64,000 bases of DNA, taken from positions 310,001 through 374,000 of the forward strand of contig NZ_JAVJSQ010000005.1 in the NCBI RefSeq assembly GCF_040219335.1. Reading direction: 5' to 3'. The DNA comes from Gimesia sp. Lineage in GTDB: Bacteria > Planctomycetota > Planctomycetia > Planctomycetales > Planctomycetaceae. Below the pieces are notes generated by a model. It saw only the letters and a program-made list of their open reading frames with translations, was not told the DNA's origin and did no database searches. The position numbers and the translations under genes are program-made. This document shows positions 37,377-64,000 of the stretch, piece by piece (position 1 is the stretch's first letter; every line of letters starts with the position of its first letter).

Positions 37377-39143
37377 ATGAGAATTTTCATCAGTCTCATC
37401 GCAGTCACAGCCCTGAGTTTCGTGTCGGCTGATCTGTCGGTTGCCTGGGCCCGCGGATTTGGTGGCGGTGGTTTCCATGGTGGTGGTGGAGGCGGTTTTC
37501 GCGGCGGCGGAGGTGGTGGCTTCGGAGGCGGAGGCGGCTTTGGTGGAGGTGCCCGTAATTTCAGCGGTGGTAACTTCGGTGGAGGCAATTTCGGCGGCGG
37601 TGGTCGCAACTTCAATGGTGGTAATTTAGGTGGCGGTAATTTAGGTGGCGGTAATTTTGATGGCAGCCGCTTCTCGAATTACGGAAGTCGCTTCGATCAA
37701 CCTGGCCGCTTCAACGATAAAACCGGCTTCGACTCTAATTTCATGAACTCGGTTCGTTCGGGTGACCGGACGAATGGCGATAACTTGAGCCGCTTCAACA
37801 ACGGACAGTTTAACCGGGGTAACCTCAATCAATTGAATGGCGGCCGTGGTCTGCGTAACGATGGTTCGCTCAATATGGGTAACATGAATTTCAATCAGCG
37901 ACCGACGCGTCAGGGCCTGGATAATTTTCTGGGGCTCCCTTCAGACGCCGGTCATAACGCAGTCACCAACTCGCATCCTCAGGTTCAAGACTTTACCGGT
38001 CGCAACACTGTGAACAGCTCGATTGCTAACGGCTCTGGTTCCGGTAACGTCTATCACGGACCAAATGGTGGAATCGCCGGTGAAGGCAGCTATACCGGGC
38101 CGCGGGGAAATACCATTTCAGGCGGTGGAGCGATTGGTCCTGACGGTGGGCATGCCGCGGGCGGAAGTATTACAGGTAACAATGGTGGTTCTGCTACCGG
38201 TGGTCGTGTCGTCGGCCCCGGTGGAGCATCCGCGGCCGGCGGGAGAGTCGTTGGACCGGATGGGGGCAGTGCTGCCGGCGGACGCGTTGTCGGTCGCGAT
38301 GGCGGCTCCGCTGCGGGCGGCCGGGTTGTCGGTCCGAATGGTGGTGGTGCTGCGGGCGGTGTTGTGCGTGGTCCCGGCGGAGGCGCTACCGCAGGTGGTA
38401 TCGTCCATGGACCAAATGGTGGTTATGCTGCCGGCTTCGTGCATGTCCCTCCTTCGACACGTTACTATCATGGTGCTGTGATTCGCGGCGGTTTTTATGG
38501 CTGGGGGATGTATTATCCCGGCTGGTACTCTGCTCACCCTGGTGTCTGGTATGCTCACGGCTGGCCGGCTGGCTACGCCTGGACGGTCTGTACGTGGGGA
38601 GCGATGATGGACTGGTTTGCCTGGTCGAACATGCAGCCGATCTACTATGACTACGGGAATAACGTGGTCTACCAGGACAACAGCGTCTACGTCAATAATC
38701 AGGATGTGGGAACCGCTGAAGAGTACACTCAGCAGGCCAGTCAACTGGCTCAGGCTGGTGCTTCGGCGGATGTCAGTGACCAGGGGAAATGGATGCCGCT
38801 GGGCGTGTTTGCACTCTCACCGACGGGGGAAACCAAGTCGGACAATGTGGTCGAACTGGCTGTGAACAAGGATGGAATCCTGAGAGGGAACTTCACCGAT
38901 ACCAAGACTAAGAAGACGCAGCAGATTCAGGGCTCGGTCGATAAAAAGACTCAGCGGGCAGCCTGGACTGTCGGCGACGATAAAAACACTGTCTACGACA
39001 CAGGGATCTATAACCTCACCAAAGACGAAGCACCCCTGCTGGTTCACATTGGCAAGGAAAAGACCGAGCAATGGCTGATGGTTCGTCTGGATCAGAAAGA
39101 CAAGAACACCGACGGGAGCAGCACCTCTACTTCAGGGAACTAA
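37377..39143 (+). CDS. Secreted Gly-rich, tandem-repeat protein
   Basis: ATG 37377 has GAGGAT upstream and begins a 588-residue protein with a signal peptide ending near VAWARG. Residues ~25-110 are almost entirely Gly/Phe/Asn repeats (GGGGFGGG, NFGGGNFGG). An Asn/Arg-rich part follows, then eight copies of a 13-residue GG-rich repeat, listed separately. A Tyr/Trp-rich segment (GGFYGWGMYYPGW) comes next. The C-terminal ~150 residues form a globular domain (KWMPLGVFALS, and LLVHIGKEKTEQWL) that is probably beta-rich. It looks like a cell-surface or matrix protein. Related planctomycete proteins are often labelled protocadherin-like, which is probably not meaningful. A strong terminator follows. 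Confidence 0.85.
   Translation: MRIFISLIAVTALSFVSADLSVAWARGFGGGGFHGGGGGGFRGGGGGGFGGGGGFGGGARNFSGGNFGGGNFGGGGRNFNGGNLGGGNLGGGNFDGSRFSNYGSRFDQPGRFNDKTGFDSNFMNSVRSGDRTNGDNLSRFNNGQFNRGNLNQLNGGRGLRNDGSLNMGNMNFNQRPTRQGLDNFLGLPSDAGHNAVTNSHPQVQDFTGRNTVNSSIANGSGSGNVYHGPNGGIAGEGSYTGPRGNTISGGGAIGPDGGHAAGGSITGNNGGSATGGRVVGPGGASAAGGRVVGPDGGSAAGGRVVGRDGGSAAGGRVVGPNGGGAAGGVVRGPGGGATAGGIVHGPNGGYAAGFVHVPPSTRYYHGAVIRGGFYGWGMYYPGWYSAHPGVWYAHGWPAGYAWTVCTWGAMMDWFAWSNMQPIYYDYGNNVVYQDNSVYVNNQDVGTAEEYTQQASQLAQAGASADVSDQGKWMPLGVFALSPTGETKSDNVVELAVNKDGILRGNFTDTKTKKTQQIQGSVDKKTQRAAWTVGDDKNTVYDTGIYNLTKDEAPLLVHIGKEKTEQWLMVRLDQKDKNTDGSSTSTSGN
38121..38432 (+). repeat. Eight tandem 39-bp (13-residue) coding repeats
   Basis: Exactly eight in-frame units of 39 bp encode variants of GGRVVGPDGGSAA. 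The central units are nearly identical (GGRVVGPDGGSAA, GGRVVGRDGGSAA, GGRVVGPNGGGAA) and the flanking ones have drifted (GGSITGNNGGSAT, GGIVHGPNGGYAA). The array lies inside the Gly-rich protein and probably expands or contracts by slippage. Confidence 0.85.
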
Positions 39144-62602: not shown

Positions 62603-62809
62603 GGTCAGAGCTTTCTATTCTGATGGCTTCTGCAGTTGAAGTTCTCTGTTAAACGCTTCTGCTAACATTACGCCCCGGGAGCAGAAGGCGTTGGATGATT
62701 CCGGGAAAAAAAGAAAACAGCAGGGAAGCTCTGAACCTCGTTGGAGATAGGTGTGTCAGACTACGGTGAAGAAAAAGTAATTTTTTGTAAAAGTAGTGCC
62801 GAAAGTGAC

Positions 62810-62838
62810 TTTACAGCACACACATAAGAAGACAGAAT
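62810..62838 (+). promoter_or_regulatory. Promoter candidate for the tRNA-Ile/tRNA-Ala unit
   Basis: TTTACA (62810-62815) and CAGAAT (62833-62838) lie 17 bp apart. They follow an A/T-rich stretch (62776-62795) that could act as an UP element. The predicted start is about 8 bases before tRNA-Ile. Confidence 0.4.
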
Positions 62839-62854
62839 ACGCGTCCTCTTATTG

Positions 62855-62928
<74 letters not shown>

Positions 62929-63021: not shown

Positions 63022-63094
<73 letters not shown>

Positions 63095-63157: not shown

Positions 63158-63308
63158 AAACACTTTCTGGGAATTTTGGTTCCCGTGAGTTGACGAGCGG
63201 TTTCGGAATGGTTAAGATCCCGCTCCTTCACTTGGGTTTAGCAGGAGTTGTTAAGCCTAAGTGGTTGTCGCAAAGAGATTTGCGGCGAAAACTGTCCGGA
63301 GGGATTTG
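63158..63308 (+). repeat. 151-bp direct repeat, copy 1, upstream of 23S
   Basis: This unit runs from AAACACTTT and matches copy 2 at 125 of 151 positions by hand count. It holds a promoter (63190-63218), a conserved block AAGATCCCGCTCCTTCACTT just after the -10, and a hairpin CGCAAA-GAGA-TTTGCG (63269-63284). Confidence 0.9.
63190..63218 (+). promoter_or_regulatory. rRNA promoter P1
   Basis: TTGACG (63190-63195), 17-bp spacer, TAAGAT (63213-63218). It is the first of three promoters spaced exactly 151 bp apart. Confidence 0.7.
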
Positions 63309-63459
63309 AAACACTTTTTGGAAATTTTGGTTTCCATGAGTTGACGGGCAGTTTTGAAAAGGTTAAGATCCCGCTCCTTCACTTGAAGTTAACAAAAGTT
63401 GTTGGTCGCAAGTGGTTGTCGCAAAGAGATTTGCGGCAAAAACAGTTCGAAGAGAATTG
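63309..63459 (+). repeat. 151-bp direct repeat, copy 2
   Basis: It is contiguous with copy 1 and in exact 151-bp register. It carries the promoter at 63341-63369 and the hairpin at 63420-63435. A third, diverged copy follows from 63460: its first 11 bases match 10 of 11, and its promoter keeps register. Confidence 0.9.
63341..63369 (+). promoter_or_regulatory. rRNA promoter P2
   Basis: TTGACG (63341-63346), 17-bp spacer, TAAGAT (63364-63369), identical in both boxes to P1. Confidence 0.7.
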
Positions 63460-63491
63460 AAAAACTTTTTCAAAAAACTTCTCCCGGACGG

Positions 63492-63519
63492 TTGACTCGC
63501 TGAGAGGCGACGATAAAAT
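63492..63519 (+). promoter_or_regulatory. rRNA promoter P3
   Basis: TTGACT (63492-63497), 16-bp spacer, TAAAAT (63514-63519). It is the closest match to consensus of the three and the nearest to the 23S gene, about 335 bp upstream. Its -35 lies exactly 151 bp after that of P2. Confidence 0.72.
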
Positions 63520-63626
63520 GACTCTCTCAGCTGACTTAAGTCGATTGAATCAAATCCAGCACTGCTGGCTCTGATTCAGCTGATTTATGTTGGCTGTTTC
63601 TCTCTGGGGTATGACCCGGAGGGTCG

Positions 63627-63640
63627 ATGATCTTTGACAA
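63627..63640 (+). promoter_or_regulatory. boxA-like rRNA antitermination element
   Basis: ATGATCTTTGACAA followed by TTTGG resembles the bacterial rRNA boxA region (core CTTTxACAA). It lies between P3 and the 23S gene, where a NusB/NusE-dependent antitermination site is expected. Confidence 0.5.
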
Positions 63641-63688
63641 TTTGGTAAAAGTAATAAGTGGCATCTATAAACATAGAGTTCTCAAGTT

Positions 63689-63718: not shown

Positions 63719-63851
63719 TGAGCGAGATTTGTTCTTAGGCAAACGATTCAAGTGCAAGGCTGTTATGCAAGGTCTTGTGAATTGAAATCGGGTTGTAATG
63801 TTTTTGGCTCCCACGAGGCAATGTGCCGAATGTGAGGTAAAAATTATTACG

Positions 63852-64000
63852 GCTAAGCTATTAAGGGCGTATGGGGGATGTCTTGGCATCAGATGGCGAT
63901 GAAGGGCGTGGAAGACTGCGATAATCTTGGGGAAGTTGTCAAACGAGCGTTGATCCCGAGGTTCCCGAATTATCATATACTGAATACATAGGTATATGAG
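63852..64000 (+). rRNA. 23S ribosomal RNA, 5' end (continues beyond the window)
   Basis: The sequence from GGCTAAGC at 63852 matches the start of bacterial 23S rRNA: the TAAGGGCGTATGGGGGATG segment, CTTGGCATCAGATGGCGATG and AAGGGCGTGGAAGACTGCGA correspond to the E. coli 5' domain. The gene is cut by the window end. The exact mature 5' end is estimated by that similarity. No 16S gene lies before it. Confidence 0.96.

Follow-up and report, generated by a model that had tools for sequence, protein, structure and literature searches.

Organization of the locus upstream of the 23S rRNA gene

The window, that is, the whole stretch of 64,000 nucleotides of Gimesia sp. DNA that was analysed, ends within a 23S rRNA gene, and the gene order at this locus is tRNA-Ile, tRNA-Ala, promoter units, leader and 23S. 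For comparison, the genus was represented by 17 genomes, in 12 of which the locus was readable; in G003 masking sets in 19 bases after tRNA-Ala, and G005, G007, G010 and G015 yielded no 23S leader. The features, all on the + strand, are the following:

62810..62838, +, promoter-like TTTACA-17-CAGAAT before tRNA-Ile (promoter scan)
62855..62928, +, tRNA-Ile (GAT)
63022..63094, +, tRNA-Ala (TGC)
63158..63308, +, cassette copy 1, 151 bp
63166..63188, +, H0 of copy 1, an inverted repeat immediately 5' of the -35 box
63190..63218, +, P1, TTGACG-17-TAAGAT (promoter scan)
63228..63264, +, H1 of copy 1, hairpin adjoining the predicted start
63265..63288, +, H2 of copy 1
63309..63459, +, cassette copy 2, 151 bp, sharing 125/151 positions with copy 1
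63319..63336, +, H0 of copy 2
63341..63369, +, P2, TTGACG-17-TAAGAT (promoter scan)
63379..63415, +, H1 of copy 2
63416..63439, +, H2 of copy 2
63492..63519, +, P3, proximal promoter, TTGACT-16-TAAAAT, in 12/12 readable genus genomes
63499..63531, +, inverted repeat across the P3 -10 box, retained
63528..63596, +, long hairpin in the leader downstream of P3, with almost no variation of its arms among 11 genomes
63601..63624, +, hairpin directly before boxA, with compensatory changes, boxB-like by position
63631..63666, +, boxA-like block TCTTTGACAATTTGGTAAAAGTAATAAGTGGCATCT, invariant in 11/11 complete leaders
63851..64000, +, start of the 23S rRNA gene, which continues past the window end

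The initial annotation had described two contiguous 151-bp copies followed by a diverged third one, each with a promoter. For the first two, the identity of 125 in 151 positions and the spacing of 151 were borne out, and the promoter scan recovered all three box pairs, TTGACG-17-TAAGAT at 63190 and 63341 and TTGACT-16-TAAAAT at 63492. Using a site rule fixed on TTGAC, the leader from tRNA-Ala to 23S contained 3 promoter sites, as compared with 0.05 on average in 200 dinucleotide shuffles, none of which had more than 1. The -35 and -10 hexamers are conserved and their spacing falls within the 16-18 range of sigma-70-type rRNA promoters, and at least two homologous promoters precede an rRNA gene (23S start at 63851) in the same orientation, as in a tandem duplication. 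Each cassette consists of an A/T-rich upstream part with H0, TTGACG-17-TAAGAT, a C-rich start, and the abutting H1 and H2.

The description of a third copy stood only in part. Similarity to copy 2 is present up to the -10 box, with 31/61 positions equal in register (a value reached by 0/2000 single-register shuffles and by 13/500 when any offset was allowed), while beyond the -10 box 20/91 positions equal copy 2, which is about chance level. A full third 151-bp copy was rejected because the likeness stops at the -10 box, and we regard the third promoter as an element in its own right, which has a leader of its own, rather than as a recent third copy. A coding repeat was also rejected, since 151 is no multiple of 3 (we take a 70-aa ORF over the repeat as a chance frame), as was a dispersed genomic repeat family, since the repeat occurs at one place only. 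Other tandem repeats of the window are found at 38259-38359 (period 39) and 37615-37664 (period 15).

The P3 leader is complete in 11 genus genomes, that of G001 being cut by masking after P3. All 11 complete leaders carry TCTTTGACAATTTGGTA, a boxA with an upstream hairpin, which is the arrangement of an antitermination leader. The name boxA is that of the element in E. coli rRNA antitermination, and Nus-dependent antitermination may act at this site. In 12/12 readable genomes, spacer and start sequence consistently set the unit promoters apart from P3, the unit promoters having a 17-base spacer and a C-rich start, and P3 a 16-base spacer and an inverted repeat over the -10 box. As RNA, this repeat (63499-63531) could form a hairpin only in transcripts starting further upstream. 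The block GACTTAAGTCGATTGAATC, located after P3 at 63533-63551, opens with a perfect 10-bp palindrome and is invariant in 11/11 complete genus leaders. A one-mismatch match to the boxA block in another contig (G004:C53, L095) was rejected, as no rRNA leader is visible around it, and scanning viral contigs for a leader word found none.

Upstream of tRNA-Ile, both hexamers of the promoter-like site, TTTACA and CAGAAT, are identical in 12/12 aligned genus genomes, and the tRNA-Ile/tRNA-Ala pair likely has its own start at this putative promoter. The segment from 62780 to 62850 is strongly conserved in the 12 aligned genomes and includes a T-run, TTTACA-17-CAGAAT and ACGCGTCC; it is likely a tRNA promoter with an upstream element.

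We found no SSU match in the window, which is without any N, and no 16S in the 62.8 kb upstream. The 16S 3'-end word was likewise absent from the window, while it was detected as a control in L018, L025 and L030, three loci from two genomes of other families. With no 16S upstream of 23S, the locus resembles an unlinked 23S locus in this respect. The 16S model gave no match in 17/17 genus genomes, and the 16S sequence is probably missing from these data. The genome of the window, in which parts of the rRNA loci are masked, yielded a single 23S locus, and in the two unmasked relatives scanned, G009 and G011, a full 23S is followed by 5S. According to passages of PMC12603096 (citing Brewer 2020), 16S lies apart from 23S in many planctomycetotal species, and in passages of PMC7761764 (which references Liesack and Stackebrandt 1989) Gimesia is among the genera compared as rRNA-unlinked; another planctomycete has two rRNA operons according to passages of PMC4334474. 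The present locus is like the unlinked rRNA genes of Planctomycetota in that no 16S lies ahead of 23S, and the passages in question of PMC12603096 and PMC7761764 are silent on a 23S promoter or its multiplication.

Promoter units and leader hairpins within the genus

The initial annotation had proposed comparing the number of units among relatives, and in the 12 readable genomes it varied from one to two. One unit plus P3 was found in 6/12 (G016, G006, G011, G013, G004 and G002), two units with a spacing of 151/152 plus P3 in G000 (the genome of the window), G012, G001 and G009, and two units with a spacing of 129/130 plus P3 in G008 and G014, where the first unit stops right after the second hairpin. 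In a tree of the flanking DNA without the units, the genomes with the 151 spacing formed one clade (100/100), and G008 and G014 fell in another clade with G006 and G011 (100/99), three changes being needed to account for all labels. The tree of the units kept the 151 and 129/130 sets apart with moderate support (93/94). Since the two periods (151 and 129/130) fall in two clades, we interpret the pattern as two or more independent duplications within the genus, although one older duplication followed by losses and copy-to-copy homogenisation is a possible alternative.

Over 12 box columns and 18 units from the 12 genomes there was one deviation (unit 2 of G008, TAGGAT), as compared with 3.9 deviations on average in the columns outside the boxes, and when the box pair was slid over 124 registers only the true one had one deviation or fewer. 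The preservation of register and boxes noted earlier for the window is thus also seen in its relatives. Comparing copy with copy in the genome of the window, 0/12 box columns differ against 27/151 overall, which is not significant (P = 0.085). Among 9 copy pairs, P was below 0.05 in three (G009, G014 and G100 u1-u2) and between 0.069 and 0.16 in six. When box sparing was combined over four duplication events, choosing one copy pair per event, Fisher's P was 3e-4 with the favourable rows and 0.027 with the least favourable ones.

H1 and H2 abut in every unit, after C-rich DNA 3' of the -10 box, and the hairpin CGCAAAGAGATTTGCG (CGCAAA-GAGA-TTTGCG), which had been claimed for corresponding positions of both copies, is present there and forms the core of H2. 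In the 18 units, H1 and H2 together comprise 26 pairs with 95.0% of cells paired, and pairing fell to 35-55% with slid partners. We counted 19 double-change cells as compared with a shuffle mean of 10.7 (0/500 shuffles as high), a test that is inflated by related sequences, while the number of pairs carrying a double change was not above that of the shuffles (379/500 as high). The H2 core had 6 double-change cells, all of them in one pair (3/500 shuffles as high). Folds of the two window copies compared with shuffles gave z values of -4.8 (0/200 as stable) and -2.9 (1/200). In H0, 94.4% of the cells were paired over the 18 units, with 18 double-change cells (0/500 shuffles as high), and between copies 1 and 2 of the genome of the window one pair is changed on both sides and still complementary. 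As RNA, H0 is possible only in transcripts from further upstream. H2 was considered as an intrinsic terminator and rejected, given that A rather than T follows it.

23S leaders in other genera and families

A search for the 23S start in 120 family genomes matched 50, five in the genus and 45 others. After G145 had been dropped for having its matches at the ends of contigs, the remaining 44 genomes yielded 46 loci, including second copies in G049 and G125. One promoter was present in 38 of these loci, none in 5 (among them G058, whose leader is limited to 252 bases), two in 2 and three in 1, so that 41/46 loci carry at least one promoter as compared with 0.05 per shuffled leader; by the rule applied, 40 of the 44 genomes showed one or no promoter and no array. 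When this looser family rule was applied to the genus, G011 gained one weak site. At none of the 46 loci was a 16S 3' end found in the available upstream DNA, which mostly covered about 1-2 kb before 23S.

Direct repeats of at least 40 bases occurred in these leaders only in G078 and G100, besides the six two-unit genomes of the genus. The array of G078 (L117) has an offset of 150 and 78% identity, with promoters TTGACC-16-TAGACT and TTGACT-16-TAGACT 150 apart and then TTGACG-17-TAAACT. The array of G100 (L118), with an offset of 164 by BLAST (163 ungapped) and 71% identity, has three units with TGGACA-17-CATAGT, CATAGT and CAGAAT, followed by TTGACG-17-TAAGAT, and G059, of the same genus as G100, has a single promoter without an array. 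Downstream of the start, the G100 units keep a hairpin in which three pairs are double-changed; 79/500 shuffles do as well, and this covariation is suggestive only. We detected no extended similarity among the arrays of G000, G078 and G100. The best match between G000 and G078 covers 28 bases (E 1e-4) and joins DNA upstream of P3 with a G078 unit; CCCGGACG, located before the P3 -35 box (window 63460-63500), resembles the DNA before a G078 unit promoter, hinting that P3 and the G078 units may share an origin.

In other families (16 loci from 12 genomes, leaving aside three additional 23S copies of G035 and G030), one promoter was found in 9 loci (7 genomes) and none in 7, and the 16 loci contained no direct repeat. 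L018 has a 16S 3' end upstream together with a promoter in the 23S leader. A stable leader downstream of the start is no general feature: outside the genus, it was observed at 5/12 sites (z below -2.5), the sequences being unrelated, and it was not seen in three family members tested (G017, G019 and G021).

Proposed role and origin of the repeated cassettes

Given the observed anatomy, conservation, compensatory changes and repeated duplication in relatives, we consider it probable that this is a 23S promoter region in which duplicated cassettes raise or tune initiation ahead of a hairpin-boxA leader. The 23S-dedicated promoter is probably old, because it is widespread in the family. As we read them, the arrays arose when promoter and leader were multiplied in place, in two events within the genus and one each in G078 and G100, with the boxes largely kept. 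In the window, the cassette would have been tandemly duplicated upstream of the proximal promoter P3, and P1, P2 and P3 would each be a site of initiation by RNA polymerase, as predicted transcription starts. All three transcripts would then traverse the same boxA leader and be processed to 23S and 5S, and the extra cassettes would increase or adjust initiation on a gene with a single locus found in this genome, a higher cassette number presumably giving more 23S. The most economical explanation would be that increased or differently regulated initiation was selected for on a 23S gene that no 16S promoter precedes. Against this reading, the boxes of the extra G100 units are weaker (TGGACA, CATAGT or CAGAAT) and those of G078 include TAGACT, so that extra promoters may be weak. 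The array is also not needed, as 40/44 other family genomes show at most one promoter and no array.

Regarding the cause, the initial annotation had attributed the duplication to the loss of a promoter linked to 16S. This step is weakened, because most relatives share the layout yet have one promoter: 38 of the 46 loci from other genera are single-promoter loci without a visible upstream 16S, and L018, with its upstream 16S 3' end, also has such a promoter.

The extra cassette might also be without effect, having arisen by slippage or unequal recombination as a neutral tandem duplication, with P3 or one unit being sufficient. This would agree with the single unit in 6/12 readable genus genomes, with the single promoter in 38/46 other family loci and with box sparing that, taken alone, is not significant in 6/9 copy pairs (P 0.069-0.16; 0.085 in G000). 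However, over four events the extra copies retained their boxes (Fisher 3e-4 / 0.027), and H0, H1 and H2 are maintained by compensatory changes in the 18 genus units; we hold neutrality to be unlikely. A better candidate, although still less probable than the reading we favour, is that differential control rather than strength is at stake, the unit promoters and P3 answering different signals, like P1 and P2 of E. coli, and the unit number tuning the balance between them. The difference in spacer and start between the unit promoters and P3 in 12/12 readable genomes, as well as the retained inverted repeat over the P3 -10 box, are consistent with such control, which, however, overlaps with the proposal that the cassettes raise or tune initiation.

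We also weighed whether the units could be small-RNA genes, producing a folded RNA of ~65-110 nt (H1-H2, with its end near the next H0) that is either set free from the 23S leader or made independently of it. A stable H1-H2 with compensatory changes, and an H0 with double changes at the end of the P1-P2 interval, would fit such a product. Nevertheless, the terminator scan found none within the units on the + strand, and a covariance model of H1-H2 matched the own genome at the two cassette sites only, with no match in 60 other family genomes (under strict filters, and with G003 masked at the locus) nor in 19 other 23S loci. Furthermore, the unit leader matched no Rfam family, only tRNA and LSU reaching the gathering score, and unrelated stable leaders follow some other promoters of this class (the 5/12 sites above), making small-RNA genes a very improbable explanation.

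Returning to cassettes that raise or tune initiation, we put forward a more general proposal with some reserve, as it may well not hold: bacteria with an unlinked 23S would repeatedly amplify a promoter and hairpin cassette, the number of which would be an evolvable dial matching 23S to the 16S made elsewhere, and the 5' hairpins would be a working part (insulating read-through, or protecting or timing the nascent leader) that is duplicated along with the promoter. When 16S and 23S are separated, the cell must still produce matching amounts of both. One or two units plus P3 in the genus, together with the unrelated arrays in two other genera, form a natural series in which promoter number, 23S output and the 16S:23S balance can be compared, and promoter copy number is suggested, beside gene copy number, as a route to altered rRNA output.

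Multiple and tandem rRNA promoters are already known, and arrays of 23S-dedicated promoter-hairpin cassettes appear to differ from the known cases. Among the literature matches listed, which mostly did not include subscription papers, none dealt with the 23S promoters of planctomycetes or with how these were multiplied. In E. coli, rrn operons have tandem sigma-70 promoters, P1 and P2, with a leader hairpin (boxB) and boxA before the rRNA gene, and P1 and P2 are not known to be repeat copies of each other. The present locus is alike in that tandem sigma-70-type promoters, a leader hairpin and boxA precede an rRNA gene, while here P1 and P2 are copies and are placed before 23S rather than 16S. 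The mycobacterial rrnA operon starts with 16S. In contrast, the gene here is a 23S with no 16S ahead of it, each cassette combines a promoter with leader hairpins, and other genera have arrays of unrelated sequence. Tandem rRNA promoters and promoter duplication in mycobacteria are treated in passages of PMC10218544, in which rrnA operons have multiple promoters (P1, PCL1) and 16S was measured from them. Eukaryotic rDNA is multicopy and transcribed by RNA polymerase I, and its spacer promoters share no ancestry with the bacterial cassettes. The likeness lies in the promoter copies repeated upstream of rRNA genes; according to PMC1215480, the number of core promoter copies in eukaryotic rDNA spacers appears correlated with growth rate.
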